IMG/VR virus record: IMGVR_UViG_3300031997_000039
Coordinates: 1-32,884 of that record
DNA: 32,884 nt
DNA from: a virus
Strand: one strand, 5' to 3'
Part shown: positions 617 to 19,906 of the stretch, piece by piece
Numbering within the stretch: position 1 is the stretch's first letter
How the letters are laid out: each line of letters begins with the position of its first letter
Translations under genes and position numbers: made by a program
The notes under the pieces: generated by a model
Database searches by the model: none
What the model was told of the DNA's origin: nothing
What the model saw: the letters and a program-made list of their open reading frames with translations, nothing else

Positions 617-1479
617 AAAGACAAGAATTAAAATTGTTACTTAAAGAGATTCTAAATATTCTAAAAGAATCTGATGATGGCATGTCCTATAAAGAACGTC
701 AAGTCAAATCTCTTCTTGCTCAACTAACTGATGAAACTATAGTAGTTACAGTTCAGAGAAATAAGGAACTTCCGGAGGCCGACTATGTTCAGGTAGATGG
801 ATTTGTTGGCGGCCAAAATGTATTTTCTAGTAATGCAGAAGATTTGAATAAGTGGGGACTTAAGATGCCTAGCACTAAAGAATTTTTAACATTGCCGCAG
901 GGAAGATACAAATTATCTGATGCTAAAAGACAACTTCATAAACCATTAGATGAAGAAATGTCTTATGACCAACTTCTCAAATTAACAGATAAAACTCCAA
1001 AAAGTCCAGAAGATGGAACGTCTCGTATAGATAGGTCAAAAAATGTAAGAGCCCGTTCAATTCCGGTTAGTACGGAAGAAAACAAGGAACAGTGGAATTT
1101 TAGGTATAAATCCAATCCAAGCGTAACAAATAAACCGTTTGAAGGAAATATAATGTTTCTCAAGGGAGAGGTAGGTAACAAAGATGATGCGGCCCAATTA
1201 CAATGTAAAGTAGATTGTAGTTGTCCCGATTACAGATACAAATTTGCTTATAACAACTTCAAACAAGGTGCTGGAGAAATCGGCCCCAATAGTTTAAATA
1301 AGTGTATAAATCGCTCGCCACAACCTGCGTATGATATTGGCGAAGGTCTATGTAAACATTTAGTCGCATTGAGAGGATATTTACAAACGAAGATAAAATC
1401 TACGCAAAAAAGTAACTTATTTGAAGCAATTAATGAGGTAGCTAAACAAGGGCCGTTTAACATAACGTATTATGATTAA
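613..1479 (+). CDS. SWIM-like Cys/His protein with candidate capsid-targeting leader
   Basis: 288 residues. The start ATG overlaps the upstream stop. The N-terminus MKRQELKLLLKE is a variant of the leader seen on ten other proteins here. It ends in L-K-E (residues 10-12), with a second candidate site L-K-E-S at 17-20. The C-terminal third holds a Cys/His cluster: C198, C202-x-C204, C231, and C247-K-H249. The CxC...CxH arrangement resembles a SWIM zinc finger, but with a long insert between the halves. SWIM fingers usually bind nucleic acid or protein. The middle (residues 120-170) is polar and probably a linker. I infer a packaged zinc-binding cargo protein; its biochemical role is unknown. 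Confidence 0.8.
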   Translation: MKRQELKLLLKEILNILKESDDGMSYKERQVKSLLAQLTDETIVVTVQRNKELPEADYVQVDGFVGGQNVFSSNAEDLNKWGLKMPSTKEFLTLPQGRYKLSDAKRQLHKPLDEEMSYDQLLKLTDKTPKSPEDGTSRIDRSKNVRARSIPVSTEENKEQWNFRYKSNPSVTNKPFEGNIMFLKGEVGNKDDAAQLQCKVDCSCPDYRYKFAYNNFKQGAGEIGPNSLNKCINRSPQPAYDIGEGLCKHLVALRGYLQTKIKSTQKSNLFEAINEVAKQGPFNITYYD

Positions 1480-2041: not shown

Positions 2042-2042
2042 T

Positions 2043-2657
2043 ATGTCATATAAAATATACACAGACAAGAATGAGAATTTTGAATGTGAAGTATCTGTAA
2101 AGAATGCTTCGTTGAAAGGTTCTATTGCTCGTCTCATCGTAGAATCTTCCGATGGGCCGACTTTGGTATTTAAGGGTGAGTTAAATGGTGATAAATGTAC
2201 CATCCCCATCAAAAGATTAAAAGGCATATTGGATGAAAGTTCTCGTGGAAATATGCATTTGGAAGTCATAGTAGAAGATACCTATTTTAGACCTTGGGAA
2301 TCGGATTTTGTAGTCGAAGAACACACATCAGTAAAGGTCAGAGTGGATGAACAAAAACAGTCTTCTAACAAACCCATTGTAAAAATCAAAGTACCGGTTG
2401 TAAAAATTATTGAATCTAAAGCACCAGCAGTTAAAACATCAACAATCAAACCAAAAATAAAGAGGAAAGGCATTAATGTTTTCGTTCCGAAAAAAGAAAT
2501 CGCAACTATATGTGAACAGTTTGGTATTAGAAAGAATAACTTTCAAAAAAGGAAAGGGGACTTTCTTCAAATTTTAAAAGAATACTTTAAAGTGAATCCT
2601 GAATATAATTACCATACAAGAACGATTTTAAGCGGAATAGACGACTTCTTGAGATAA
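2043..2657 (+). CDS. Hypothetical protein: beta-rich N-terminus and basic C-terminus
   Basis: 204 residues from ATG 2043, chosen because of GAGGA five bases upstream; an in-frame TTG at 2031 is less likely. Residues 1-103 look like a compact beta domain, alternating hydrophobic and charged residues and ending in ...PWESDF... A Lys/Pro/Val linker follows (105-145). The last 60 residues are basic with Phe/Tyr. The linker contains I-I-E-S (122-125), which matches the [IL]-x-E-S pattern discussed for the cargo proteins, although this protein lacks the N-terminal leader. I do not recognise the family. Its position between the Trp-rich gene and the fibres suggests a late structural or assembly role, as inference only. 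Confidence 0.75.
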   Translation: MSYKIYTDKNENFECEVSVKNASLKGSIARLIVESSDGPTLVFKGELNGDKCTIPIKRLKGILDESSRGNMHLEVIVEDTYFRPWESDFVVEEHTSVKVRVDEQKQSSNKPIVKIKVPVVKIIESKAPAVKTSTIKPKIKRKGINVFVPKKEIATICEQFGIRKNNFQKRKGDFLQILKEYFKVNPEYNYHTRTILSGIDDFLR

Positions 2658-4479: not shown

Positions 4480-4514
4480 ACATAACAGACAGATAGAATC
4501 ATTACCGGATATTG

Positions 4515-4520
4515 AAGGGA
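4515..4520 (+). promoter_or_regulatory. Shine-Dalgarno AAGGGA of the 1567-aa fibre gene
   Basis: AAGGGA lies four bases upstream of ATG 4525, inside a 45-base gap after the previous fibre gene. I see no TATATTTAT element in the gap, which fits co-transcription with the upstream fibre. Confidence 0.5.
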
Positions 4521-4524
4521 TGAT

Positions 4525-7500
4525 ATGGCATACGAATTCATTATAAAAAATGGGCTGATTAGCCCCGGCTCCGCACAAATCACTGGCTCCTTAACGGTGC
4601 TCGGTGGTATTACTGGCGACCTTACAGGAACCGCTTCTTGGGCATCAAATGCTGTATCAGCTTCGTGGGCACCAGACCAAACTGTTAGTGTAAATAGTGC
4701 AAGTTGGGCTAGTTCATCTATTTCAGCCAGTTATTCCGAATTTGCTTTGAGTGCCAGTTGGGCACCACAACAACAAGACATATCTGTAAACAGTATCACC
4801 GCCTCATACATTTCTGCAAGTCATATTGAAACTGTTGACCCACTACACGAAGATGATGTAGCCACAAAGAGATATGTTGATAGTTTGACTCCGGCAGGAT
4901 TTGACTTTTATTTTCGTTCATCAAGTGCTGATATTGTTGGATATCATAATGCTTTGCCATTGACCACACCTGTTAGTTCATCACAAACAGATTTGATTGT
5001 ATTAAATGCTTCAGCATCACAATATATTTATGAGTTTATAACTCCAGCAATAAATGTTGTTTCATTAGCAAGAGGAACTACCAATTTTCACATTCACATG
5101 TATCGTGTGGGTGGTCATGCTGCTAACACTTTTCAGGTGGAAATGTATATTAGAAGTGCCAGTGTTGAAACTGAATATGTAGTTTCTTCTCCAATTACAC
5201 TTACCACAGATGTAAACGCAAACTACATTATTCCAGTTGTTTTGACAAGCAGTTTGGAAACCAACTTAACTGATAGAATAGTTGGAAAAATCAAAATTAT
5301 CAATGGAGCAAGTACTCCAAATGTCCATTGTTTAGTTGAAGGCACCACTGCTGCTGGTATTACTGTTCCTATTCCATCTTCCAACTTCGTATTGAAATCG
5401 GGAGATACGATGACTGGCGACCTTACTGTTCCAAATGTAATTGGAAATCTTATAGGAACAGCTTCGTGGGCATCAAATGCTGTATCAGCTTCATGGGCAC
5501 CTGACCAAACTGTTAGTGTAAATAGTGCAAGTTGGGCTTCGGCTTCAATTAGTTCATCATTTTCTACAACCGCTTCTTACACTAACGATTATCAAAGTAA
5601 AACCGCAACGAATTTTTATTTTCCGACGTGGTTCAATGGTAAATTAACTGACACAAGTGGTATTAGTGTAGAAAATGATATTTACCATTATATCAATGGT
5701 AATATTTATTCTCTATCTGATAAACCATCATTGACTGTAAATCAGGTTGATGTAAATAATGTCAACGTCATACGTTCTTTCGGTGACGCAAATGATTATG
5801 TTCAAACTGCCGTAAGAAATATCAACGCTGGTACCGCTGCTTCAAGTGATATGGTAGCAGAAGCTGATAATGCTTCGGAGAGTAGTAGTTATGTTGACGT
5901 GGGCATCAATTCGTCGGGATGGAATAGTGGTTCTAATGGAAACGACGAACAACCAAATGACTCTTACCTAATCAATCATGATGGTGATTTATGGATTGGT
6001 ACGGATGAATCGGGGTCAGGCTATGCTATTCGTATGGGTATTGGAAACCACGTTTATCCAAGCATGTCATTGGTTGTGGAAGAAGGTGGTGTCAGTGTTT
6101 CTGGTTCATTCTACGGAACGGCATCATATGCAAAAAATTCAGACCGTTCTATTAGTTCATCAAATGCAAATTCTGCCAGTTACATAATTCCGGGTGCTAC
6201 TTTATATGTGGTATCAAGTTCAACAAATCCATCATATATTGAACCCTACAACATTCCAACCGTTCCTTACAATCCTCCTTACAAGGAAGGTAGAATGTTT
6301 TATGACAAGGATTATTCTAACTGGGTTTATTACACGGACCAGAATTTCAAACTTCACATCGGTAAAGAAGTAATTTGGAGAGTTCACAACCCATTCACTT
6401 CGTCTTTGAACGCATTGACCGCGGTTTATCTATCAGGCTCAACTAATGGACAAGACCCGGATGTTTATCCAGCAATTTCTGACGGCACAGGAATTCGCAG
6501 TGAAGTAGTGGGAGTTATTAGACATGCAATTCCATCAGGTTCTACAGGATATGTTCTCCAAGTTGGTGTATCACATAATGTGAATATGACCGGATTTAAT
6601 ATTGGAGATAGAGTGTGGCTCTCTACAACGGTGCCGGGAGGATTTACCAATGTAGAGCCGGGACAGCCATATGAATCAGTTGAGATTGGTTACTGTCAAG
6701 TAGATGGTATAAATGGTTCACTTATAGTTCATACTGTAATAAATCCGTCGCCTCCAAATGCTTATGCTGGTATAACCTCCGATATTTTTGTCACCAATTT
6801 ACTAAATGGAACAGTCGGCGTTTCAACGGGTAGCGTCAATTTATTTGATGACGCTACTGGATATGGTCTTGTAAAAGGTTATCCACTATCAGCTACAACG
6901 TTATCATTGGTTACAGGTTCAACAAACTACATCGTTTCAGAAAGAACCGGAAGTATTAATGCCAAATACACTCTTACAACCGACCCATCTTACGCTACCG
7001 GTATTAATATTGTTCGTGTGGCTACCTTGGACATTTATCAAGAGACGACTTCATCGTGGGATGTTCAGATCTTTAATGTTGGTATTGTTGGTCTTGCTTT
7101 AGCAAATAGAACCGATAATAAAGACATTCTTCTTTACGGTTATCAGAGACAAAATGGTTTAACTTTATACACCACAGGTTCGGTAGGATATTTTGGTATT
7201 ACCGAAGGAACGGTTTGGTATGGACCAAATTCACACGTAGTTCCAACTTTTGATACCTACATACCGGGATATTACACATACATTTTCCACACATCAGGAA
7301 GTGGTTGGCACCAACACACATCAAGTATTTACTTGAATGGTGTTTATGATAGTGGAGCGGGAAGTTCATCATTGATAACCTGCGCTCCTAATTCTTGGTC
7401 GGTAAACTTTGTCTATCGTTTGATGGGCACGAATGATGAATCTGCTATTGTAATGAGTAATGCTCAATTCGCCACCGAATTAGAAGCCTCAAATAATGCT

Positions 7501-9228
7501 CAACCACCAGCAAATCTTCCATCAACCATTAGAGATGTTGGACTATTGGTTGGTAGATTTGTTGTCCAGAGTGGTTCATATAGTTCTGTGGTCATTGAGT
7601 CAGCATTTTCAAATATTTTCATTCCATCCGTAGTTACTGACCACGAAAGTTTGACGGGACTACAAGGTGGGCAAGGCGGAGAACACAGACACTTAACAGC
7701 AGCAGAATACACGGGCACGGGCACAGGTGTATTTATGAGAAATATCAAGCCTGTATTCGGCGGGGCAACTCCGGGTCATGTTCCTTACTGGAAGAATGAC
7801 CAGACATTGACTTTAACAGGCAGTGTTCAGGTTTACGGTGACCAGTATGTTTTGATTAACTCAGGTTCACCAAATCCAACAGACCCAGAAGCATTGTTGG
7901 TATATCAGAAAAATACATCATCGGTAAACACCATTGGTGCTTATTCAAATGTTAATAATTACTCACAGATTTACAATCAGAACTTGAGTAGTGGTTCTGA
8001 TGCCTCTACTGATTTTTGTGCTACGGCCGACGTTGGGACTCAAAACTCCAATTATCTTGATGTTGGTGTTGCTAATAGTGGATATGCTAGTGTCTCTTGG
8101 CCTTGGTTAAAACCATTAGACGGATACGTTGAAGTAGATGGTGGAGATATGTGGTTGGGATTACTTGGTGACAAAAAACTCCTATTTACATTCAACAATA
8201 CGGCCAGCACAAATTATGCTGATAAGACAGGTTTCTATCTTTCTGGTTCATTCTTTGGAACTGCTAGTAATGCTAGAAACTCAATTGTTTCAGTTTCTTC
8301 ATCATTTGCAAGTAGGTCATTTACTGCCACAAGCGCATCGTGGGCATCAGAATCGTTCTGGGCCACAAGTTCCTCTTTTGCAAGTGAGTCATTTGTTGCC
8401 ACGTCGGCTTCATTTGCTTCACAATCTATTAGTGCTAGTTACGCACCATTTACTCAGACAGAACAGATTAGTGCAAGTTGGGCTTCATCGTCGTTTGTTG
8501 CCACGTCGGCTTCATTTGCTTCAAGGTCAATCAGTGCTTCATACGCACCACAAGTTGAACAAATAAGTGCATCATGGGCTTCTGCTTCATTCGTTGCCAC
8601 GTCTGCATCATTTGCCAGTCAGTCAATAAGTGCCTCTTGGGCACCAGTGCCGGTGAGTGCTTCGTGGGCTTCTGCTTCATTTGTCGCCACATCGGCGTCA
8701 TTCGCTAGCAGGTCTATTTCTGCAAGTTTTGCACCACAAGTTGAACAAATTAGTGCAAGTTGGTCGAGTGCTTCGTTTGTAGCTACGAGTGCTTCGTTTG
8801 CCTCAAGTTCTTTTGTATCGGTAAGTTCATCATTTGCCAGTAGGTCATTTACCGCAACGAGTGCTTCGTGGGCCTCTGAGTCATTCTGGGCTACCTCAGC
8901 TTCGTTTGCATCAAATTCAATTAGTTCATCATTCACTACAACTGCTAGTTTTGCTGTCACGGCTAGTTTTGCTTTGGGTATGCCTTCGATTAAATCGGGT
9001 ATTGCCTCAGGTTCAGCGTTTGCTGGTAGTCCAAAAACAATTACGATTACATTCACAAAAGCTTTCCCTGACAATAATTATAGCGTGACGGTGACGGGTG
9101 AAAGTTCAAGAACTTATACAATTCAATCCAAAGTAAGTGGAAGCTTTGTAATCAATGCTAACAATAATACAGCGTTTACTAACTTTGTATTTTGGCAGGC
9201 AATAACTGGTGGAGAGTTCTACTCATAA
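4525..9228 (+). CDS. Giant tail-fibre protein (1567 aa) with duplicated beta domains
   Basis: A strong AAGGGA precedes the ATG. The N-terminus (M-A-Y-E-F-I-I-K-N-G-L) leads into a short SASWA segment. A globular domain around residues 426-480, with the pattern N-x-G-x-A-A-S-S-D...Y-V-D-V-G-I-N-S-S-G, recurs in diverged form around 1148-1190 (G-S-D-A-S-T-D...Y-L-D-V-G-V-A-N-S-G). Near residue 1052 there is G-G-E-H-R-H-L-T-A-A-E-Y, a histidine-containing motif common in phage fibres. A long SASWA/SASFA shaft covers about 1256-1490. The C-terminal ~80 residues form a beta-rich tip with F-P-D-N-N-Y-S-V-T-V and a final F-W-Q-A-I. It is probably an adhesive fibre; the receptor is unknown. Only three bases separate it from the next fibre gene. 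Confidence 0.85.
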   Translation: MAYEFIIKNGLISPGSAQITGSLTVLGGITGDLTGTASWASNAVSASWAPDQTVSVNSASWASSSISASYSEFALSASWAPQQQDISVNSITASYISASHIETVDPLHEDDVATKRYVDSLTPAGFDFYFRSSSADIVGYHNALPLTTPVSSSQTDLIVLNASASQYIYEFITPAINVVSLARGTTNFHIHMYRVGGHAANTFQVEMYIRSASVETEYVVSSPITLTTDVNANYIIPVVLTSSLETNLTDRIVGKIKIINGASTPNVHCLVEGTTAAGITVPIPSSNFVLKSGDTMTGDLTVPNVIGNLIGTASWASNAVSASWAPDQTVSVNSASWASASISSSFSTTASYTNDYQSKTATNFYFPTWFNGKLTDTSGISVENDIYHYINGNIYSLSDKPSLTVNQVDVNNVNVIRSFGDANDYVQTAVRNINAGTAASSDMVAEADNASESSSYVDVGINSSGWNSGSNGNDEQPNDSYLINHDGDLWIGTDESGSGYAIRMGIGNHVYPSMSLVVEEGGVSVSGSFYGTASYAKNSDRSISSSNANSASYIIPGATLYVVSSSTNPSYIEPYNIPTVPYNPPYKEGRMFYDKDYSNWVYYTDQNFKLHIGKEVIWRVHNPFTSSLNALTAVYLSGSTNGQDPDVYPAISDGTGIRSEVVGVIRHAIPSGSTGYVLQVGVSHNVNMTGFNIGDRVWLSTTVPGGFTNVEPGQPYESVEIGYCQVDGINGSLIVHTVINPSPPNAYAGITSDIFVTNLLNGTVGVSTGSVNLFDDATGYGLVKGYPLSATTLSLVTGSTNYIVSERTGSINAKYTLTTDPSYATGINIVRVATLDIYQETTSSWDVQIFNVGIVGLALANRTDNKDILLYGYQRQNGLTLYTTGSVGYFGITEGTVWYGPNSHVVPTFDTYIPGYYTYIFHTSGSGWHQHTSSIYLNGVYDSGAGSSSLITCAPNSWSVNFVYRLMGTNDESAIVMSNAQFATELEASNNAQPPANLPSTIRDVGLLVGRFVVQSGSYSSVVIESAFSNIFIPSVVTDHESLTGLQGGQGGEHRHLTAAEYTGTGTGVFMRNIKPVFGGATPGHVPYWKNDQTLTLTGSVQVYGDQYVLINSGSPNPTDPEALLVYQKNTSSVNTIGAYSNVNNYSQIYNQNLSSGSDASTDFCATADVGTQNSNYLDVGVANSGYASVSWPWLKPLDGYVEVDGGDMWLGLLGDKKLLFTFNNTASTNYADKTGFYLSGSFFGTASNARNSIVSVSSSFASRSFTATSASWASESFWATSSSFASESFVATSASFASQSISASYAPFTQTEQISASWASSSFVATSASFASRSISASYAPQVEQISASWASASFVATSASFASQSISASWAPVPVSASWASASFVATSASFASRSISASFAPQVEQISASWSSASFVATSASFASSSFVSVSSSFASRSFTATSASWASESFWATSASFASNSISSSFTTTASFAVTASFALGMPSIKSGIASGSAFAGSPKTITITFTKAFPDNNYSVTVTGESSRTYTIQSKVSGSFVINANNNTAFTNFVFWQAITGGEFYS
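4627..4710 (+). repeat. Direct DNA repeat, copy A
   Basis: This 84-base stretch encodes GTASWASNAV...SASWA and recurs 828 bases downstream at 5455-5538 with only a few, mostly synonymous, differences. It is a recent duplication compared with the other repeats in the gene. Confidence 0.8.
5455..5538 (+). repeat. Direct DNA repeat, copy B
   Basis: Second copy of the 84-base unit at 4627-4710. Both copies follow a similar G-D-L-T segment, so the duplicated unit may include flanking sequence that has since diverged. Confidence 0.8.
8290..8990 (+). repeat. SASWA/SASFA coding repeats, long C-terminal shaft
   Basis: A near-continuous run of Ser/Ala-rich repeats with a higher-order unit of about 20-25 residues (SASWA-SASFVAT-SASFASQSIS-ASYAP). 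It is separated in places by a short Q-V-E-Q-I spacer that itself recurs. Confidence 0.85.
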
Positions 9229-9231
9229 TTT

Positions 9232-12200
9232 ATGGCAGACGAAATCTTTTTAGTTAATTCGAGCAGCTTCCAAGATGTGGAAGTATCCGCATCATTGCGT
9301 GCTGGGCCGGGAATCATTGTTGATTTTACACAAGCAACAAGAGTTACAGGCTCATTTGTTGGCGACGGAAGACAATTAACACAAATTTCAGCATCATTTA
9401 TTATTGCTGGTAGTAACACAACATCCAGCCAAGCAATCTCATCAAGTTTTGCTATATCGGCTTCTTGGGCACCTGACCAGACGGTAACAGTAAATAGTGC
9501 TTCGTGGTCATCGGCGTCATTTGTGGCGACAAGTGCTTCATTTGCTTCACAATCAATTAGTGCAAGCTATGCTCTCACAGCTTCATCAGCCGTAAACGCT
9601 TTCTTGGCAACATCTGCCACATCTGCTACTTCGGCAACATCCGCATCTTGGTCATCTGCTTCATTTGTTGCTACATCAGCGTCGTTCTCAAGTGCATCAT
9701 TTGTTTCTTTGAGTTCATCGTTTGCCTCTGCGTCAATTTCATCAAGTTATTCATTAACGGCTTCGTCAGCAGTTAATGCTTTCTTGGCAACGACAGCAAC
9801 TACAGCCACCACTGCAACATCAGCATCTTGGTCATCTGCTTCTTTTGTAGCTACCAGTGCTTCATTTGCTTCTCAATCAATTAGTGCAAGTTATGCTCTC
9901 ACAGCTACAACTGCCGCATCTGTTACATCGGCTTCTTGGGCAAGCGCATCGTTTGTAGCAACAAGCGCATCATTTGCTTCACAGTCAATAAGTGCAAGTT
10001 ATGCTCTAACTGCTTCATCGGCTGTAAATGCTTTCTTGGCAACCACGGCGACAACGGCTACGGCTGCAACTTCTGCTTCTTGGTCAAGTGCATCTTTTGT
10101 GGCTACGAGTGCCTCATTTGCCAGTCAGTCAATTTCAGCCTCATGGGCGCCACCAATCCCAAGTGATTACGCTGTATCATCGTCTTGGGCATCAGAATCA
10201 TTTTGGGCTACCTCAGCATCGTTCGCTAGTCGTTCAATCAGTGCAACTTCTGCTTCGTTTGCCAGTGCGTCGTTTGTTGCCACGTCTGCTTCATTTGCTT
10301 CCACTTCATTTGTAGCTGTATCTGCCTCATTTGCTAGTGCTTCTTTTGTTGCAACTTCTGCTTCGTTTGCCAGTGCTTCATTTTTCACTACAAGTGGTTC
10401 ATGGTCCTCTGCTTCATTCGTAGCTTTGAGCGCATCATTTGCAAGTTCATCACACAGTTCTTCATTGGCAGCTTTGATGAATGTAAGTTCGAGTATAACC
10501 GATGATAGAAATTATCCTTTGGTATTTACTATCAATTCAGGAAGTCAAAATCTAATCATAGATGATGGTCAGTTGGTCTATAATCCAAGTATCAACAGAT
10601 TATTAACTTCAACATTAAGTGCCTCAACATTTACAGGTCCCGTAAGAACAGGTCTAAACGTAAGAACGTTTGGTGCTACAGGCGATGGAACTACTGATGA
10701 TACTGCTGCTATTCAGAGGGCGTTGTCTGCTTCTTGGACTTCTGGTGTCGGCAACAGAGGCGTGGATTTGTTCTTTCCGGGTGGTGTTTATCTAACAACT
10801 GCTCCAATTTCATGTTCCGGTAACAACGTATTTTTGGTTGGTGCTGGTGTAGGTGGGACGGCTCTTTATCCACAACACGTTACGGGTGATGTTCTACAAT
10901 TTGGTAGTATTGCTATCAGTGTTGCTTCCGTGGGTGTGATGAATATGTCATTGATTTGTCCTACCACAAGAAGTTCTGGTGCGACAATTAATCTAACCAA
11001 TGCTGATGATGTTCTCATTCAGAACTTCAATATTACAAATTACTTTGAAGGTATTAGAGTTACAGGTTCCAGTATTAAGGTAAAAATTGATAACGGAGTT
11101 TTGAGTTCTGGATACAGACAAACAGGTGTTGGTATTCTTGTTAACAACGGATTAGCGGGAGATACTTACATCACTGACGTTGTAACGTCAAATCCAGTTA
11201 CAGCTATTCCATTGGCGGGTATTCAATTAATTCAAACCGGCCATACATCCATTCTCAGAAATAACATAACATCGGCCCAGTATGGATTGTATATGAATCC
11301 ATCATCTTCACAGGATGTTACTTATGTGTTCTGTGACCACACTTTGTTTGACTCTTGTATATCAAATTCTCTCTTTATCAATCCTGTCGCATCAGGTAGC
11401 GCAAGAGTTCGTAGTGGTGTGTTTGTCAATTCTTGGTTTGCTGGAACTTTGTCAGGTTCAGGTATAACCATTTCTGGTGATGCCAATGCTGGTGGTATTA
11501 ATAGTCCAATCATTGATGATTACAAATTCATCGGTTGTAGAGTATTGAATAACTACCGTCAGGGTGTTTACATTTCTAACAGTGGTTCTACAGGAAACAT
11601 TGGTTTTCACGATTGTACAATTGCTGGTAACTCACAACAAAGTTCCAGCCAATGGAGTGCCTTCGAAATTGACAAAAATGTGACCGGTAGTATAATGCTT
11701 ACAGGCAACAGAATTGGTCAAGCCGGCACGGCAACCAATACTCAAAGACATGCCATTCTTGTTCCAGATTCATCAGGTAGCATGAACCTTAAAGTTGCTC
11801 ACAACAATTTATCGGCGAACGTCATTCCTCCATTCATTAACTTTGGTGTAATGACCGGCAGCGTAATTATATCTGATAATATAGGTGATGAATCATCAGG
11901 CGTCTCAGTTAGATCACTACCTACAACGGGGTCGGCAACGTCAGGTGCAAGTGAAGTGTTGTTGTTCAATTATCGTGTACCAGCCAACTCTGTTAGGGTC
12001 GGTCAATACTATCGTATCAGAGTAATTGGCTTCTCTTCATCCACCGGTACATTGATTTTCCGTGTTCGTGTTGGTGCTAACGGAACAACCGCTGACAATC
12101 AAGCTTGGATTAATACAACAAGTGCGGCTCAGGTAGCTAATGCAAGGGCTGGATTTGATGGTCTATTATATGTAAGAGCTATCGGTGCGTCGGGATTAGT

Positions 12201-12366
12201 TTGCGCAGAAGCACAAGCCCATGCTGGTGCTTTGGGATTGGGAACTCTTGTTGCCGCACCAACTACTGCCGCTGTAGTTACAACCGCTAACTGGTTTATT
12301 AATGTATCTGCTACATGTTCAGTCGGAACATACACAATTCTAGCAGCAGCAATTGATGCTCTATAA
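9232..12366 (+). CDS. Tailspike-like fibre: SASWA shaft plus pectate-lyase-type beta-helix
   Basis: 1044 residues, starting three bases after the previous stop and without a clear Shine-Dalgarno sequence. Residues 74-420 are SASWA/SASFA repeats with sub-blocks of A-T-S/A-T-T triplets. At about 476 the motif V-R-T-F-G-A-T-G-D-G-T-T-D-D-T-A-A-I-Q begins, a hallmark of the Pectate_lyase_3 beta-helix family. About 400 residues of right-handed beta-helix-like repeats follow (N-x-x-I, G-I-x-V, Asn-rich turns). A separate C-terminal beta domain (about 900-1044) is rich in Ala/Thr/Val. Such proteins bind, and often cut, surface polysaccharides. I cannot assign catalytic residues, so depolymerase activity is inference. 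Its end converges with the minus-strand block after only eight bases. Confidence 0.85.
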   Translation: MADEIFLVNSSSFQDVEVSASLRAGPGIIVDFTQATRVTGSFVGDGRQLTQISASFIIAGSNTTSSQAISSSFAISASWAPDQTVTVNSASWSSASFVATSASFASQSISASYALTASSAVNAFLATSATSATSATSASWSSASFVATSASFSSASFVSLSSSFASASISSSYSLTASSAVNAFLATTATTATTATSASWSSASFVATSASFASQSISASYALTATTAASVTSASWASASFVATSASFASQSISASYALTASSAVNAFLATTATTATAATSASWSSASFVATSASFASQSISASWAPPIPSDYAVSSSWASESFWATSASFASRSISATSASFASASFVATSASFASTSFVAVSASFASASFVATSASFASASFFTTSGSWSSASFVALSASFASSSHSSSLAALMNVSSSITDDRNYPLVFTINSGSQNLIIDDGQLVYNPSINRLLTSTLSASTFTGPVRTGLNVRTFGATGDGTTDDTAAIQRALSASWTSGVGNRGVDLFFPGGVYLTTAPISCSGNNVFLVGAGVGGTALYPQHVTGDVLQFGSIAISVASVGVMNMSLICPTTRSSGATINLTNADDVLIQNFNITNYFEGIRVTGSSIKVKIDNGVLSSGYRQTGVGILVNNGLAGDTYITDVVTSNPVTAIPLAGIQLIQTGHTSILRNNITSAQYGLYMNPSSSQDVTYVFCDHTLFDSCISNSLFINPVASGSARVRSGVFVNSWFAGTLSGSGITISGDANAGGINSPIIDDYKFIGCRVLNNYRQGVYISNSGSTGNIGFHDCTIAGNSQQSSSQWSAFEIDKNVTGSIMLTGNRIGQAGTATNTQRHAILVPDSSGSMNLKVAHNNLSANVIPPFINFGVMTGSVIISDNIGDESSGVSVRSLPTTGSATSGASEVLLFNYRVPANSVRVGQYYRIRVIGFSSSTGTLIFRVRVGANGTTADNQAWINTTSAAQVANARAGFDGLLYVRAIGASGLVCAEAQAHAGALGLGTLVAAPTTAAVVTTANWFINVSATCSVGTYTILAAAIDAL
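9430..10490 (+). repeat. SASWA repeats with A-T-S/A-T-T sub-repeats
   Basis: Three related copies of a unit encoding S-Q-S-I-S-A-S-Y-A-L-T-A begin near 9544, 9868 and 9976. Two of these continue into V-N-A-F-L-A-T and runs of A-T-S or A-T-T. The copies differ mainly at third codon positions. Confidence 0.8.
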
Positions 12367-12374
12367 GAAGTGAG

Positions 12375-13298
12375 TTATTTGAAAGGAATTTCAGTAACCG
12401 TTCCACTTAGAGGAATTGTATTTGGAAGTGGTTCCCAGTTTTCAATTTTATTGGAATCTACAGGTTTGCCGCCGTCGGCAGTATTTACTGATAATGTGAT
12501 ATGAGCAACTTCGTTGGTTGTCCAATACCCTCTTACTTTTACAGCGACAGCTTTATCAGACTTACCAAACTCGTAAGCGGTTAATTGAACTTTCTTACCA
12601 ATATCTTGTTTTTTATCTTGTGGAAGTTCGCCCATTTTAATAGTCATGTGATGGGCAAATTCTTTCCAATTTGAATCCATTTTATCCTTGAAAAATTCTA
12701 AAAGCTTCTTTTGGTCAACATCATCTAAAACTACAGCAGAATAACTAACTTTTTTGTATGGCATGGATTCTTGAAGTCTTGGTGTAAAATTCACTGGGTC
12801 TGCCAAAGATGATGTTTCTTGTTCGCCACAGTCGGCCAGATGCGCTTTAAGCTTTGCATCCTTCAAAGACTCACGAAAGGCTTGTTTCCACGTTATAGGG
12901 ACAGGATTACCCGCTTCATTGATATCTGGATTGTTATGGATTTTCTTTGCTGCAGTCATCCACGTTCTAGCCACTTTATTTGTGTGTTTACGGACTCTTT
13001 CCTTGTAAGACTCATTGGTATCGTTGGGTTTACGAAGATTATGCGTCTTTATTTTAATCCAAATCTTGTGGGGTTTATCATCTTCGTTGATATAAACCGT
13101 GGCGCCAGAACGTTTAGTTTGCCAATCATTACCTTCCATGTAACAAAACCAGTCTTTACCCTCAACAATACCATCCCAATTTGGTGAATCATCATTCCAT
13201 CCTCCGGGCATAGGACGGAGTTTGGAGTCAGGATTACCATTGACCGCCGGGCCGTGACTAATCCACTCATTGATTTTGATTAAGGTCTTTAATTTCAT
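12375..13298 (-). CDS. 2H phosphoesterase-like protein with leader and extra N-terminal domain
   Basis: 307 residues. The leader MKLKTLIKINE ends in I-N-E (9-11). Residues 12-170 form an unrecognised domain rich in Trp, Asp and Lys. From about 182 to the end the protein carries two H-x-T motifs, H217-M-T219-I and H266-I-T268-L, 49 residues apart, each at the end of a predicted strand. That is the signature of the 2H phosphoesterase superfamily, which acts on 2',3'-cyclic phosphates or cyclic oligonucleotides. The domains are joined at L175-Q-E-S178, a match to the prohead-protease pattern, so the enzyme may be released by cleavage. It is the last gene of the minus-strand block and has its own upstream TATTTATA. 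Confidence 0.75.
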   Translation of the reverse strand: MKLKTLIKINEWISHGPAVNGNPDSKLRPMPGGWNDDSPNWDGIVEGKDWFCYMEGNDWQTKRSGATVYINEDDKPHKIWIKIKTHNLRKPNDTNESYKERVRKHTNKVARTWMTAAKKIHNNPDINEAGNPVPITWKQAFRESLKDAKLKAHLADCGEQETSSLADPVNFTPRLQESMPYKKVSYSAVVLDDVDQKKLLEFFKDKMDSNWKEFAHHMTIKMGELPQDKKQDIGKKVQLTAYEFGKSDKAVAVKVRGYWTTNEVAHITLSVNTADGGKPVDSNKIENWEPLPNTIPLSGTVTEIPFK

Positions 13299-13319: not shown

Positions 13320-13733
13320 TTATTCTACGAAGTCCTTTATTTCTGTTATTGCTGATGCTGGGATTGTTCCTTTGTAGATATATGATTTTGGTAACTCTTC
13401 ATCTTCTACTGCCGACATATTAACATGTGGGTCTTTATCAAGATTTGATGTATCAAATTTTCCTGTGTCAATAACACAAATTACTACTTCATCCAACCAT
13501 TCATCTGGAATATCTTCATTTTCTGTTCCCGCTTGAACCATACTTCCCGCAAAAGATTCATTATCGCTTAAATACACTCCCCACTCCGCACCATCAAAAT
13601 TTCTAATAGTAGTTCCATGAGGAATAAGACCGTGTTTTTGGATGCTAGGAACCAGAGCGTTAAACGTTGCATGATACAAAACAGGCGGTATCGGTTCATT
13701 AAACGATTCAATAATTTCTTTAAGTTTTATCAT
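13320..13733 (-). CDS. ADP-ribosyltransferase/KptA-fold protein with leader
   Basis: 137 residues. The leader MIKLKEIIE ends in I-I-E (7-9) and is followed by S-F. The body matches the ART superfamily outline: L-Y-H21-A-T near the start, a helix with H-G-L-I-P (34-38), G-V-Y54-L-S, and a C-terminal Y-I-Y-K-G-T-I-P segment (118-125). H21 and Y54 would be the first two residues of the H-Y-x triad used by KptA/Tpt1 RNA 2'-phosphotransferases and diphtheria-type ADP-ribosyltransferases; the third residue is unclear. Known members transfer ADP-ribose from NAD+ to protein or RNA. T4 packages an ADP-ribosyltransferase (Alt) in its head, which makes the leader meaningful. The substrate cannot be read from sequence. 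The gene overlaps its upstream neighbour by 14 bases. Confidence 0.65.
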   Translation of the reverse strand: MIKLKEIIESFNEPIPPVLYHATFNALVPSIQKHGLIPHGTTIRNFDGAEWGVYLSDNESFAGSMVQAGTENEDIPDEWLDEVVICVIDTGKFDTSNLDKDPHVNMSAVEDEELPKSYIYKGTIPASAITEIKDFVE

Positions 13734-14148: not shown

Positions 14149-14894
14149 GACGTGGATTTTTTTACTTTTGACCAAAGTTCTTTAGATTTAGGGTCGCTTG
14201 GGGATAATGGTTGTTTTTCTTTTTCGGCTCTAAGCATTCCTAATTCCTGTTGAATCTGTTGTTGTCTAGCTGTGCCTGTACCCGTAGAGTCCAATCTATC
14301 CCACTCTTGTTCAAGTCGTGCAATTTTACCATCTATGTCGTGATGGATATTACCTTCGGTCAAATCAAAATATGATTTACCACCACTAATAGGTGAATAA
14401 CACAACCGCTTAATAGGAACATTTAATCTCAACCCTTCTTTAAGACGATTGAATTTTCCTTTTTTAACATAAGCCAAAGTAAGATGTGGAATATAATCAG
14501 GATAATCACTTTCATTCAGATGGGCTCCTGATAATTCGTTTAATTTTTTCAATACAGGACTGTTTACTTTAAATACAGCCACATCATAACTTGGATGTGG
14601 TGCAAATTTATCCAACCCAAAAATTTCCATCATGAATGGTTTTTGTCCTTGAATCAATTGACGTATATCAAGTTCATTCAAATCTTTTAAAAATCCATAA
14701 CGAATAGTAACATGAGATTCCATTTCTCTACCATATTCATTACCTTCAAGATACAGGTCTTCATCGTTAATCAATTGTTTACTGAATTTAAGAATTTTGG
14801 CCGTATCTTCTTCTGATAACATGGCCATCAAACACCCCTTACGTGCCGATACGTCTCTATTTTCAGTCAACATTTTTTTTAAGTTAATCATCAT
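14145..14894 (-). CDS. 2H phosphoesterase-like protein with leader and coiled-coil tail
   Basis: 249 residues from 14894. A second ATG at 14891 gives a leader aligning exactly with the others, MINLKKMLTE, ending L-T-E; either start overlaps the upstream stop. Two H-x-T motifs, E-S-H61-V-T63-I and P-H137-L-T139-L (numbered from 14894), lie 76 residues apart with the usual alternating strands, so the 2H phosphoesterase assignment is good. After residue ~185 comes a charged, Gln-rich, probably coiled-coil tail with no family match. Known 2H enzymes open 2',3'-cyclic phosphates on RNA ends or, as in phage Acb1, destroy cyclic oligonucleotide signals. Which applies here is not decidable by eye. 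It is only distantly similar to the other 2H protein at 12375-13298. Confidence 0.75.
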   Translation of the reverse strand: MMINLKKMLTENRDVSARKGCLMAMLSEEDTAKILKFSKQLINDEDLYLEGNEYGREMESHVTIRYGFLKDLNELDIRQLIQGQKPFMMEIFGLDKFAPHPSYDVAVFKVNSPVLKKLNELSGAHLNESDYPDYIPHLTLAYVKKGKFNRLKEGLRLNVPIKRLCYSPISGGKSYFDLTEGNIHHDIDGKIARLEQEWDRLDSTGTGTARQQQIQQELGMLRAEKEKQPLSPSDPKSKELWSKVKKSTS

Positions 14895-16153
14895 ATTCCT
14901 CTGAATGGTTCGTTTCTTATAAATACTTCCATAGCATAGTCACCCTTCGCTTTCTTACCAGATATAATTTGTTCGTAATTCTTCAAAAACTCACTAGCTT
15001 TCATGGTTTCTCTTGGAGACGCCGACCATTTAATGACTATCCAGAAGTCGCCATAGTTCTCTATTACCCATTTTACTCTACCATTCTTAATATCTTCACC
15101 ACGAATCCATTGACTGTATTCTGGTGGGCCAGCGCCAAATGGTTTCGGTTGGTTTTCTGGCTTTTGCATTTCTTTCTTGAAATCATCTATTACAGTGCCC
15201 AATTTATCCAAGAACGCCTTATTCTCAGGAGTATTGGTATCAACCACCTTCAATTTCAAGGCCTGAGTATAAGGAAGGCCTAGTTTTTTCAACTGTTCTG
15301 CTAACGCAGCATATATCTGTTCTGCGTTTGTGCTAGCTGGCCCCAAATGAACCGTTCCACCTACACCAATCTTTTTGCCATGATAGTCTGCATAATGGTC
15401 GGGTGGAGAGTTGATATCATAGTTGTATTTGACAATCCCATCCCTTACAAACTTAAAAACTCTGACACGATACTCACCCTTTGGTGTTTGTATCCTCATT
15501 ACTGTGTCTCCTTTATCAAACTCAATATTTTCTCTTAGAAACACCTTACCAACTACTTCATCAATGTTACCCCAATCATTGCCTCCATAATGTTCAATCC
15601 AAATTTCTTCTGGATTCAATTTTTTGATGACTTTGATTTTATTCAAGTCCAAAAGTGGTTCATCATCATGAATACCCAAATCTTCCAACGATTGACCTTG
15701 TATCAAATAAATGGGTCTTCCTTTTTTATCAAAAAAGTCTCCTATCAAACTATCCAAAGTATTCAATCCTATATCACTTAACTGACTTGTATCCAATTCC
15801 CACATACCACGTTTAGTATTCCACTTCACAGGATACGCACTTATTCCTTTTTCAAATCCACCGGTTACATGATTTGAAGATTTACCACTTTTTGGAATGT
15901 CGCCAAATCGAACATAGTAATGGTCGGCTTGAAATTTTGCCTTGTAAGCTTCTGGATGTGGTGGCTTGTATCTATTGAAATTACGCAAAGCCTTAACAAC
16001 TTTACCCCACCGTGGGTCTTTATCCCACAGATATTGAAGTTTCTCACCCCTATCTTTACCGGGCGCATTATCTATTAAATTATCGAGCCATTTTTGGATA
16101 TTTTTCTCTCTATCCTCTAAACTCTCAAATAGTATGTTTATTAGTTTATCCAT
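14891..16153 (-). CDS. Unknown 420-aa protein with candidate leader
   Basis: The N-terminus MDKLINILFE ends in L-F-E (8-10) followed by S, fitting the leader pattern although the usual Ile-x-Leu-Lys is changed. The protein is rich in Lys, Asp, Trp and Tyr. It has an aromatic N-terminal helical region (15-60) and a middle part (about 185-275) that looks beta-rich. The C-terminal region repeats short stretches such as W-V-I-E-N-Y-G-D-F-W-I-V-I-K-W. No catalytic motif, signal peptide or membrane segment is evident, and I do not recognise the family. It overlaps the upstream polyprotein gene by eight bases and the downstream 2H gene by four, so it is firmly part of the block. Confidence 0.72.
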   Translation of the reverse strand: MDKLINILFESLEDREKNIQKWLDNLIDNAPGKDRGEKLQYLWDKDPRWGKVVKALRNFNRYKPPHPEAYKAKFQADHYYVRFGDIPKSGKSSNHVTGGFEKGISAYPVKWNTKRGMWELDTSQLSDIGLNTLDSLIGDFFDKKGRPIYLIQGQSLEDLGIHDDEPLLDLNKIKVIKKLNPEEIWIEHYGGNDWGNIDEVVGKVFLRENIEFDKGDTVMRIQTPKGEYRVRVFKFVRDGIVKYNYDINSPPDHYADYHGKKIGVGGTVHLGPASTNAEQIYAALAEQLKKLGLPYTQALKLKVVDTNTPENKAFLDKLGTVIDDFKKEMQKPENQPKPFGAGPPEYSQWIRGEDIKNGRVKWVIENYGDFWIVIKWSASPRETMKASEFLKNYEQIISGKKAKGDYAMEVFIRNEPFRGI

Positions 16154-18116
16154 TTGGAAAAATTAGTTTGTATAATTCCTTGGTGAATAATTTCCACCGT
16201 GGGAAGTCTTTATTTTTCATGTGTTCTAAATTATCAATGATAGTTTCCAAAGTATCAATGCCTGTGTAAATTGGTTTACCTGTAACTATATCATTGAATT
16301 TTTCCTTCCATTGTTTGTATGGAAAACTTCGATTCAAAAACTTTTCAATGTGAAATTTATAACTGTAAAGATTGGTCTTAAATTCAACATCACGCATATG
16401 ATGCCTTTCTCTAGCATTATATCCATGAATATTTCTAAATCCCAAAACATCCGCCGTCTTACTTAATACTTTAGTTTTAGGAAATCCAATATTATCACTA
16501 AATTGTTGTACGTGTCTAATTTCATGTTTTATTGTATCCGTTAATTCTTCTGTAGATTTCTTAAATGAATGTATAAAACTGTGTCTATTGACCAAAATGT
16601 AAATATCTTGTGGAGATTTTGAATGGACCACATATCCACCATTTGATGTTGTATATCCATTTGTAATTTTCAAAATTACATCAGGCATTATAAATTTTCC
16701 ATCTACACCAGACGTTGGATATACTCGTAGAGAAGCCTGACCCCAATTGGTATCTTCTTCACATCTCATAGTTTTGAATAATTTCTTTCCTTCATCTCTA
16801 TATTGTTTAGCTAACTTGTAATACTCATTATATTTTACAATCGCATGGTCAGTTTTTGTCTTGGAGTTTTGCACTCTCGTTTCAAAATATTTCAAAAAGA
16901 ACGATGCGATAAATTTAGCTAATATCTCAGATTGACTGTCAACGTTAGGAGCAAGTTTGAATGATTCGTTTATTTTAGGTCTTCTATACATTATACGACC
17001 GGAAAAACCACCAAGGCTATAATCTTTTTTTCTTCCTTTATTATTCACAAATCCCAAATCTTTGTAAAATCTATCCAACTTTTTTGTATAACCTCTTTTT
17101 GCTTCTGGTGATAAAGTAATGACTAAATCTCTGTCATCTGCAAATTTCTTAATGTCTCTTATTACTGACCCTCCGACTCCCATATGTCGGTCTTCTAATT
17201 TAACTCTAATAGAACTTAGATATAATGAACGGTCAGCAGAAATGTAAAAATACAAATCCTCCAACTGTGGATATTTTTGAATTAAGGATTTCCTAAACTT
17301 CTCCGTATCAATTTGGAGTGGCGTTCGGTCTTCAAAACTTTCCTTTATATTTTGTTGTTTTTGTTTTAGTTTTTGAAACCAATTTACTCCATGTCTTTTT
17401 GCCATCAAATCGTAATATTTTTTGGTCATGGAAATACCTTTATTAGTCATCTGACCTATTTTTCCCCTGCCACTTTTTACCGTTGGTCTTTGTTCAATAT
17501 GTTTATCCAACAAATCTGTGCCTATTCCCAATTTTTGATATGGACCTTCAACCCACACTCCAACAGCTCCAAACTCATCACCAGCAAAACCAATTGGTTT
17601 ATCACCAACAAAAGCTACAATGCTAGTATTATATTCTGGCAGGTTTGCTTTTTTAATTTCGTCCGGAGTCATGTATCCTATATCTCCATTTGGGTATCGA
17701 ACGATTTCACCATTAGCATCGTGTTGAGTATATTGGTTTTTTTCTCCTGTTTGTCTAAACTCAACTTCATAATTTCCGTATGTTCCCCTATCTAAAAGTT
17801 TTGGGTATTTAGATTTACTTCCCAACCAAGACAATCCACCTTCCTTCTCATAATTCTTATACGCATCAGACCCAATAAATCCTGTGTAGTGATGATTAAA
17901 GAACTCTTCTTTGTCTTGTTCGTATTCTCTTTGTGATGGAGATTTGTGTTTTTCTTTTTCTATTTCTATTAAAGCTAGTTTGATTAAATCCATCAGATGT
18001 TTTTTATCATACCCACCTTCCGGCGATTTACGCCACCGTTTAATAAGGTCGGTCAATTCCTTTTTAAAGGTATTGATACGAGTATTTTCTAAAACTATGG
18101 ATTTGAGATTAATCAT
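16146..18116 (-). CDS. Candidate polyprotein: GNAT-like, GNAT, and HExxH metalloprotease domains
   Basis: 656 residues. The leader MINLKSIVLE ends V-L-E (8-10), the only leader here without Ile or Leu at the first position. Domain 1 (about 75-250) has a GNAT acetyl-CoA loop, Q194-K-L-G-I-G199. Domain 2 (about 265-380) has R310-H-M-G-V-G-G and the GNAT C-terminal signature L-D-R-F-Y-K-D-L-G-F-V (347-357). Domain 3 (about 390-656) has H531-E-I-R-H535, a zinc metalloprotease motif, with E578 a plausible third ligand. The junctions read I257-K-E-S-F261 and I382-N-E-S-F386, identical in pattern and matching the T4 prohead-protease site. I infer maturation into three enzymes after packaging. A permanently fused protein is the alternative. 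Confidence 0.78.
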   Translation of the reverse strand: MINLKSIVLENTRINTFKKELTDLIKRWRKSPEGGYDKKHLMDLIKLALIEIEKEKHKSPSQREYEQDKEEFFNHHYTGFIGSDAYKNYEKEGGLSWLGSKSKYPKLLDRGTYGNYEVEFRQTGEKNQYTQHDANGEIVRYPNGDIGYMTPDEIKKANLPEYNTSIVAFVGDKPIGFAGDEFGAVGVWVEGPYQKLGIGTDLLDKHIEQRPTVKSGRGKIGQMTNKGISMTKKYYDLMAKRHGVNWFQKLKQKQQNIKESFEDRTPLQIDTEKFRKSLIQKYPQLEDLYFYISADRSLYLSSIRVKLEDRHMGVGGSVIRDIKKFADDRDLVITLSPEAKRGYTKKLDRFYKDLGFVNNKGRKKDYSLGGFSGRIMYRRPKINESFKLAPNVDSQSEILAKFIASFFLKYFETRVQNSKTKTDHAIVKYNEYYKLAKQYRDEGKKLFKTMRCEEDTNWGQASLRVYPTSGVDGKFIMPDVILKITNGYTTSNGGYVVHSKSPQDIYILVNRHSFIHSFKKSTEELTDTIKHEIRHVQQFSDNIGFPKTKVLSKTADVLGFRNIHGYNARERHHMRDVEFKTNLYSYKFHIEKFLNRSFPYKQWKEKFNDIVTGKPIYTGIDTLETIIDNLEHMKNKDFPRWKLFTKELYKLIFPNG

Positions 18117-19906
18117 GATATATTTGCTACTTTTTTAGCAATGTCCAAAGCTTCTTCTCTTGTTAATCCGGGATTTTCATACCAAGCATCAGTAACCGCA
18201 GTAATGATTTCCTTGAACAGTGGTCCGGGTTTCAATCCCATTTTTTGTAGGTCAAAGCCAGAAATAGGCATCTTCGGTTTGGTAGGAACATCTTTCAATG
18301 TCTCCAAACGTTTACGAATACCAGCAATCTGATGTGGCATAGATGACGCTTCGGCGTGAGCAATGTTATCAGCATGCATCAAGTTCAAGACGTTTTCCAA
18401 CTGTTCGCCCATTTCATTACGAAACTTCAACAGAGTCTTGTCTTTTAGTTTAATTCCAACATCACCTGCCTGCTTTAGACGCATATGGTTACGAACGCCC
18501 AACTTAACGGCGTCAATCAATTCTCTTGGGTATTTTAGACGAGCCATGATTTCTTCAACCATTTTCTCACCTTCCATTTCATGACCGTAGAAATGAACGC
18601 CGCCTGTCTCAGGTTCAACAGAACGTGTAACCGTCTTGCCGATATCATGAAACAATCCCATCAAACGTTGAACCAATACAGGTTCGGTTTTACCAAGAAC
18701 ATCAAGAGTGTGTTGAAACACATCAGCTTTGTGATATTTGTTCTGAACCATCTTGACGGCAGGCAAAAGTTCTGGAATGACAAATGGTAACAAACCTGTA
18801 ACCTTCATCATTTTGATTGCCTTTGATGGATGGCCTGTAACCAACATCTTATTCAATTCATCACGAATTCTTTCCTGAGAAATGTTTGGAAGTTGATTAG
18901 CATTCTTCTTCAATCCCCTCAACATAAACATTGGAAGTTTCCAATTGTATTTGACAGCAAATCGAATTGCTCGCAACATACGAAGTGGGTCATCCGTGAA
19001 AATTTTGTCAGGATTGAGAGGGGTTCTGACGATTCCAGCTTGAATGTCAGCCTTGCCCATTCCTGTAAGGTCTAGGATTTCTCCCGTTGATAAGTCTTTC
19101 AATAGACTATTAACGGTAAAGTCTCTACGTTCAACGTCATCTTTCAATTCTCCACCTGTTACGGTAGGCTTTCTTGAACCTGCTGTGTATTCCTCTTTAC
19201 GTGGCATTACAGACTCAATATCCATATCGGATAAGTCAATACCATTGTGAACAACACCACGAAGATTAAACTTCGCTGTGCCAAATCTTGGGAAGATTAC
19301 AGGATTAGAGCCGGGGTCTTCTTCGTTAGCCCCGCCTCTGTAAGCTCCTACTTTTTTGGTAATCCACTTGGCAAATTCGATTCCGCCATTTGGAGCGTTT
19401 ACCAACAAGTCAAGGTCTTTTGGGTCTTTGCCCATGAACTCATCACGGACATATCCACCGGCGATGAATACCTTACCGTGCCATTCAGTTCCCCGAATAG
19501 TCTTACTGATAAAGTCTTCCAACGCTTTTTCTTTGACGCCTTCTTTAATCAACTGTTTAATTTCTTCCATAAGTTTGTTTCCGCCAAAGTCTTCCGGTTG
19601 TGACTGTCCGTATAAAACATGGCGTTTCACCTTAACATTATACTGGTATTTTAGGAATTCTTCAACTACAAATCTCTGTTTTTCAGATGGGATGAGTTCC
19701 CACCATCTTACAATCTCATCGTCATAATGATAACGCCATCTATTATCATTGGCAGTAATACCATAACCCTGACCACGACTCAAAACATCATCGTGACGAG
19801 AAAGTTCATCGGATGCTATTATATCAAAAGAATCGTTTACAAATCCTGTGATGGCTTGTAATTTCTTAAGTCCGAGTTTTATCTTTTTTTCGGTTTCCTT
19901 TAACAT
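18113..19906 (-). CDS. CCA-adding/poly(A) polymerase-family nucleotidyltransferase with HD domain and N-terminal extension
   Basis: 597 residues. The polymerase head starts near 140: A-G150-G151-Y-V-R-D, then the catalytic D164-L-D166, R-R-D-F-T-V-N (260-266) and D-D-P-L-R-M-L-R-A-I-R-F (305-316). An HD phosphohydrolase domain follows, with H399 and H420-D421. This is the class II CCA tRNA nucleotidyltransferase/poly(A) polymerase family, which adds CCA to tRNA 3' ends or A tails to RNA; HD domains often remove 2',3'-cyclic phosphates. Residues 1-110 are an unrecognised domain. Residues 113-122, MEEIKQLIKE, look like the cargo leader placed inside the protein, with ATG at 19570. The gene may be a fusion cut at that point, or translation may also start there. 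It is coupled to the next gene by ATGA at 18116-18113. Confidence 0.85.
   Translation of the reverse strand: MLKETEKKIKLGLKKLQAITGFVNDSFDIIASDELSRHDDVLSRGQGYGITANDNRWRYHYDDEIVRWWELIPSEKQRFVVEEFLKYQYNVKVKRHVLYGQSQPEDFGGNKLMEEIKQLIKEGVKEKALEDFISKTIRGTEWHGKVFIAGGYVRDEFMGKDPKDLDLLVNAPNGGIEFAKWITKKVGAYRGGANEEDPGSNPVIFPRFGTAKFNLRGVVHNGIDLSDMDIESVMPRKEEYTAGSRKPTVTGGELKDDVERRDFTVNSLLKDLSTGEILDLTGMGKADIQAGIVRTPLNPDKIFTDDPLRMLRAIRFAVKYNWKLPMFMLRGLKKNANQLPNISQERIRDELNKMLVTGHPSKAIKMMKVTGLLPFVIPELLPAVKMVQNKYHKADVFQHTLDVLGKTEPVLVQRLMGLFHDIGKTVTRSVEPETGGVHFYGHEMEGEKMVEEIMARLKYPRELIDAVKLGVRNHMRLKQAGDVGIKLKDKTLLKFRNEMGEQLENVLNLMHADNIAHAEASSMPHQIAGIRKRLETLKDVPTKPKMPISGFDLQKMGLKPGPLFKEIITAVTDAWYENPGLTREEALDIAKKVANIS

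Follow-up and report, generated by a model that had tools for sequence, protein, structure and literature searches.

Layout of the 307-residue fused gene

Next to neck and tail genes of the window (the whole 32.9-kb stretch that was analysed), a 307-aa open reading frame joins an N-terminal domain to a 2H phosphoesterase domain behind a candidate capsid-targeting leader (Table 1). The leader follows the pattern MKLKTL[IL]xIxE, ending in L/I-x-E, and in the alignment E11 is invariant across five relatives; a cut at E11 is uncertain, as the Glu is followed by a bulky W, unlike in most leaders. The earlier note had placed L175-Q-E-S178 between the two domains, which agrees with the sequence and with an AF2 model from five sequences (mean pLDDT 61.6). 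The better-defined blocks of the model are residues 50-161 and 184-306, and because residues 164-184 have pLDDT <50, LQES lies in a predicted disordered linker. The predicted cut would follow E177, whose codon is 12768-12770 (-).

Table 1. Features of the fused gene and of candidate sites at other module joins, in window coordinates; a slash follows the Glu of a candidate or leader site
Feature	Coordinates	Strand	Basis
Fused gene, N-terminal domain + 2H phosphoesterase	12375..13298	(-)	307 aa ORF; split and fused relatives
Candidate capsid-targeting leader, residues 1-11, MKLKTLIKINE/W	13266..13298	(-)	alignment; like MIKLKxLIxE leaders
N-terminal domain, residues 12-174	12777..13265	(-)	stand-alone in G002-G005, separate gene in G006
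LQES, residues 175-178, candidate prohead-protease site	12765..12776	(-)	leader register, four fusions, linker
2H phosphoesterase domain, residues 179-307, CNPase/CPD-like	12378..12764	(-)	VIA, PF08302, phrog_36523
First HxT motif, H217-M-T	12642..12650	(-)	sequence
Second HxT motif, H266-I-T	12495..12503	(-)	sequence
Candidate site IKES257-260, 656-aa protein, before second GNAT module	17337..17348	(-)	aligns with separate-gene leader LIIE/G, G002
Candidate site INES382-385, 656-aa protein, before HEIRH metallopeptidase-like module	16962..16973	(-)	register of IKE/V (G006) and LDE/A (L048)
Candidate site IKEG120-123, before CCA-adding module	19538..19549	(-)	ILE/G N-terminal leader in G002; PolyA_pol E 2.2e-18
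Candidate site LREN206-209, 420-aa protein, before KGDT module	15527..15538	(-)	G006 has IEE/G there, different upstream domain
Candidate site LDEE112-115, 288-aa protein, before SWIM-like module	946..957	(+)	[LIV]xE precedes the module in six phages

The N-terminal domain matched nothing in Pfam or PHROGs, and its AF2 model (mean pLDDT 64) gave no usable fold match in Foldseek (best E 0.31) or VIA (best Z 4.6). It has zero relatives among the cultured phages searched. PADLOC returned no convincing match, and the Pfam search matched no peptidase domain on the 307-aa protein. The domain ends in DP[VI]NFTPR (window 12777-12800 (-)), eight residues that recur close to the C-terminal end of the major capsid protein (MCP) of the same phage, as seen in G002 (PLVYDPVNFTPRRG); in the G002 MCP gene (354066-355913) their codons differ from those of the N-terminal domain at synonymous positions, and the T4 gp23 equivalent is SDPKNFQP. 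Judged from the shared residues, mimicry of, or docking to, the capsid shell is possible.

The C-terminal half combines two H-x-[TS] motifs with a 2H fold, as in the 2H phosphoesterase superfamily. VIA matched it to mouse CNPase (9etl) with Z 11.1 over 125 residues, and more weakly to the fungal entry 6u05 (Z 8.1) and to Acb1 (Z 7.2). PF08302 (tRNA_lig_CPD) was found on the 307-aa protein at E 0.0019 with 18.1 bits, below the gathering cut-off of 23, which the G006 homologue passes with 23.4 bits; the Acb1 family PF23474 was not reported for the 307-aa protein in the Pfam search. The domain thus shares two HxT motifs and the fold with CNPase, the CPD domain of fungal tRNA ligase and Acb1, but differs from them in sequence (about 11% identity) and in being predicted capsid cargo.

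The candidate site lies at an orthologous gene junction

A first scan found relatives whose match ended at residue 174. In L005-L008 the N-terminal domain forms a whole protein of its own, 175-181 aa long, that ends in DPVNFTPRK and a stop codon, one residue beyond the fusion point. The fusion in L003 and L004 is diverged and reads FTPR-IGES-NMQKISYSA across the join. Scanning with the single 2H sequence retrieved the near-identical copy only; a two-sequence 2H alignment gave 72 matches and added two fusions, FTPR-LGES and FTPR-IGES. In L128 (genome G006) the N-terminal domain and 2H are separate genes in unchanged order. The former terminates DPVNFTNTV followed by a stop, and the stand-alone 2H gene, with 69% identity to the 2H of the window, begins MIKLRPLIGE-VMINRTISYSAVVLDD. 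Its leader MIKLRPLIGE/VM aligns with LQE/S such that the cleavage Glu maps onto E177 with zero offset. All four diverged fusions retain [LI]xES (LQES, IGES, LGES and IGES), the linker between ES and SYSA varies among them in sequence and length, and the MIKLK core is absent at the 2H join of each. Between the two G006 genes lies a reverse-strand NUMOD3 ORF (L128 4189-4938, E 4.4e-13), homing-endonuclease-like, which may either have split a fused gene or have entered between two genes.

We extended the comparison to other 2H homologues. Where the 2H protein has a short N-terminal extension (7-45 aa), [LIVM]xE occurs at most 16 residues before the domain in 17 of 23 non-redundant homologues, and the same holds for 12 of 14 non-redundant fused forms. 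In other phage groups some of the extensions are T4-like leaders, for example MKLLIENWRNYLNE/A. A different partner is seen in other phages (L143, L146-L148, L154, L157 and L159), where 2H stands behind a P-loop kinase-like domain in a tRNA-ligase-like kinase-CPD arrangement; in these fusions the matching linker residue is E, G, D, A or N, so that, unlike in the fusions to the N-terminal domain, the Glu is not kept. A stand-alone 2H homologue in L046 (4152-4556 (-)) has the leader MIKLKTLITKD, with Asp in place of the expected cleaved Glu. In T4 IPIII this exchange permits targeting and blocks processing (PMC9026906).

Motif frequency in leaders and protein bodies

Recurrence of [IL]-x-E-S at boundaries had been taken in the earlier note as an argument against chance, and the sites named there are all present: IIES7 (13320-13733), LFES8 (14891-16153) and LKES17 (613-1479) after leaders, together with those in the 656-aa polyprotein. 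Strict [IL]xES sites number 12 in the 24 window proteins, where shuffles predict about 5.0 (per-protein values summed). Six of these stand at leaders or module junctions; the other six comprise one each in a 249-aa 2H protein, the neck protein and a tail protein, and three (IVES36, LDES67 and IIES126) in the protein at 2031-2657 (+), which is leaderless, so that the motif occurs off boundaries too. Since the record holding the window is itself no more than a 32.9-kb fragment, a wider count was made on relatives, using 87 MIKLK-type leader proteins drawn from its phage group. Leader residues 1-20 are strongly enriched for [IL]xES (10 vs 2.0 expected), whereas the bodies of these proteins (11 vs 9.6) and tail-repeat proteins (7 vs 6.7) have it at background. 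The enrichment is limited to leaders, and recurrence of the strict string does not tell boundaries from bodies. Tail-type proteins of 600 to 2090 aa with SASWAS/SASFASQSIS repeats occupy 2677-12366 and 24316-30588 (+) of the window.

The fourth residue of the motif proved unconstrained at leaders: P1' after the leader Glu is N, I, S, A, Q, G, E or V, with no preference for Ser. At P3, 74 of the 79 leaders having a site carry L or I, in a search that admitted only L, I, V, M or F at this position. The variable P1' and the L or I at P3 indicate that the informative motif is [LI]xE, which is the published T4 gp21 site (PMC9026906). We therefore rejected the strict [IL]xES count as proof, and the motif alone points only weakly to a cleavage site. 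As far as sequence can tell, the diagnostic feature is that the motif sits at an orthologous gene junction.

Module joins in other proteins

For each leader site of an unfused gene, the corresponding internal residue in fused or extended proteins was located automatically. This gave 40 junctions, which include several orthologues of one fusion. [LIVM]xE falls at the exact predicted residue in 13 of them (control 0.8), at most one residue away in 21 (control mean 2.1, maximum 8 in 300 draws) and at most three residues away in 24 (control 4.7). As fused and unfused relatives share descent, the 40 cases are not independent and retention is partly inheritance; the joins have, however, usually lost the MIKLK core but not the Glu, which argues for selection. 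Lysozyme-like proteins with long N-terminal extensions, probably not fusions, account for many of the misses. There is no site at L046 2945-3907 (QKEA) or at the GNAT1 join of the window's 656-aa protein.

The automated count serves as the test, and a module table made by hand from BLAST joins picked by eye as illustration. In the latter, leader and internal forms share register for metallopeptidase-like, GNAT2, ParB-like, ART-like, KCYEL and SLKGST modules, and for CCA and SWIM-like modules [LIVM]xE precedes the module behind differing upstream partners. Counterparts of IKEG120-123 elsewhere are IME/G, IVE/G, MSE/G and LNE/G. A scan with the 656-aa protein returned near-identical copies only.

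Prohead protease and proposed processing

A Peptidase_S77 gene occurs in two relatives, G002 (365 kb; gene at 342792-343421) and G004; its product is homologous to T4 gp21 (5jbl, E 1.2e-14) and matches phrog_207, head maturation protease. Relatives also have gp23-type capsid proteins; in the 32.9-kb window fragment no protease gene was identified. In T4, a 10-residue CTS is sufficient for packaging and gp21 cuts after L/I-x-E (PMC9026906), and cleavage of Alt takes place at both ends, at ITE-6 and LTE-619 (PMC5694885). By neck protein the nearest cultured phages are Microcystis phage Mel-JY01 and Flavobacterium phage immuto, each showing no more than a single MIKLK-type leader across the regions examined, so they offer no proteomic shortcut; a literature search found no virion proteomics for immuto.

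We consider it likely that the fused gene encodes two capsid cargo proteins as one precursor, which is cut apart in the prohead by a gp21-type protease. The leader MKLKTLIKINE would direct the 307-aa precursor into the prohead core, where the gp21-type (S77) protease would cut after E177 in L-Q-E/S and probably also near the leader. The products would be an N-terminal-domain protein of ~19.0 kDa and a free 2H phosphoesterase of ~14.7 kDa, both ejected together with the DNA. Neighbour genes appear to follow the same rule, their GNAT, metallopeptidase-like, CCA-adding enzyme, ParB-like, SWIM-like and 2H modules being either single with a MIKLKxLIxE leader or joined with the [LIVM]xE position kept. 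The earlier note's proposal of a protease-cleavable fusion of two cargo proteins is well supported by the split and fused forms, the leader of the 2H gene and its register with LQES, the linker position, the three further fusions and a gp21 homologue in two relatives; we infer the packaging, cleavage and ejection of the 307-aa protein. With somewhat less assurance, we favour the wider view that in a group of large T4-like phages the prohead protease site may act as a universal connector for shuffled, trans-processed cargo polyproteins, delivered as separate enzymes.

The fusion might instead stay whole as a two-domain protein, in the manner of uncut polyvalent proteins of phages; LQES would then be the relic of a leader, left when an adjacent 2H gene joined the N-terminal-domain gene. 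Common descent of the fused and unfused forms is clear, the CCA join is still leader-like in three phages (IKQLI[KMV]EG), and the virion RNA polymerase of N4 is packaged uncut (PMC5512222). However, the MIKLK core is lost at the 2H join, yet [LI]xES persists in 4/4 fusions despite changing flanks and linker length, and the kinase-2H fusions, for which no such pressure is expected, vary at this residue. We regard retention as a mere relic as unlikely. That cleavage is real and due to the HEIRH metallopeptidase-like module of the 656-aa protein (16146-18116) or to a host protease seems the least probable explanation of all; the module lies in the same cargo cluster and embedded peptidases have been proposed to release some polyvalent proteins (PMC5512222), but the T4 gp21 class, of which relatives encode a homologue, has [LI]xE as its published cleavage specificity, and the leaders end in the same motif.

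The 2H domain could also be made separately from M179, an old start codon directly behind LQES, in which case no proteolysis would be required. The window, L003 and G008 have an ATG at the motif or a short way behind it, and G009 has a GTG; many 2H homologues begin with an M just before the domain. The distance from start codon to motif is not fixed, though, nor is the codon always ATG, and no obvious Shine-Dalgarno sequence precedes M179, although few window genes show one. Internal initiation would leave the conservation of [LI]xE unexplained and yield a product without a targeting leader, and we hold it to be very improbable. The same small probability is given to a short motif falling in the linker by chance: about 21% of random 15-residue stretches of these proteins contain [LIVM]xE and bodies carry the strict motif no more often than background, but the precise alignment with the unfused gene's leader, the four diverged fusions and the 40-junction test argue against it.

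Relation to known capsid cargo

The proposed cargo resembles the T4 internal head proteins and Alt in its short N-terminal leader ending in L/I-x-E and its enzyme content, in the T4-type capsid protein and S77 protease (here in relatives) and, with respect to Alt, in a single cargo protein cut at two places (PMC9026906, PMC5694885). It differs in the leader core MIKLKxLIxE, in carrying at least two enzyme modules per precursor with a site per join, and in that packaging is here predicted; its modules also swap between single-gene and joined forms, whereas the T4 internal proteins are without fusions. Polyvalent proteins are likewise multidomain, encoded near virion genes and composed of ART, GNAT, ParB-like, lysozyme and metallopeptidase-type domains; they are predicted to be injected, and their authors liken them to polyproteins (PMC5512222). 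The 307-aa and 656-aa proteins similarly combine several unrelated effector-type domains and adjoin neck and tail genes. Release of polyvalent proteins is attributed to embedded peptidases, whereas the joins here match the leader site of the prohead-protease class. The inner-head proteins of phiKZ and SPN3US are ejected and cut after Glu by a related protease, and fragments can stay in the head, but their site is A/S-x-E rather than L/I-x-E and no modular joining of separable genes is described for them in the available text of PMC5694885.

Most likely, from these sequence comparisons, the present case combines T4 internal proteins and polyvalent proteins, as multidomain cargo with prohead-protease-type sites at its joins. 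A literature search, with subscription literature mostly outside it, found no description of such cargo. If the proposed processing is true, head-maturation proteolysis would sort the delivered enzyme payload besides maturing the shell, and fusion would let one targeting leader bring several enzymes into the head at a fixed ratio. Leader-register [LI]xE at module joins would then be a sequence rule for capsid cargo in uncultured jumbo phages, and CPD-like 2H, CCA-adding, GNAT, ART-like and metallopeptidase-like proteins would be candidate injected enzymes to try against host defence.

Possible function of the 2H product

The least certain step is the activity of the 2H product, which most likely opens RNA 2',3'-cyclic phosphates, as its fold would suggest. 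With the CCA enzyme it would perhaps form a tRNA-repair kit, given the 2H fold and the co-occurrence with a CCA-adding module; RNA repair by 2H enzymes in jumbo phages has been proposed earlier (PMC7824862). A counter-signalling activity may also be considered. CCA-adding and/or 2H domains are joined in much longer proteins of 1293, ~1810 and 1237 aa in L205/L206 (G010, 8859-12740), L134 and L209, respectively, the last from a 735-kb phage record. The 1293-aa protein of G010 holds CCA, Acb1-like 2H and CPD-like 2H domains in a single chain, and the joins in these long proteins read MNE, INE, ILKE, LE-S or LNE.
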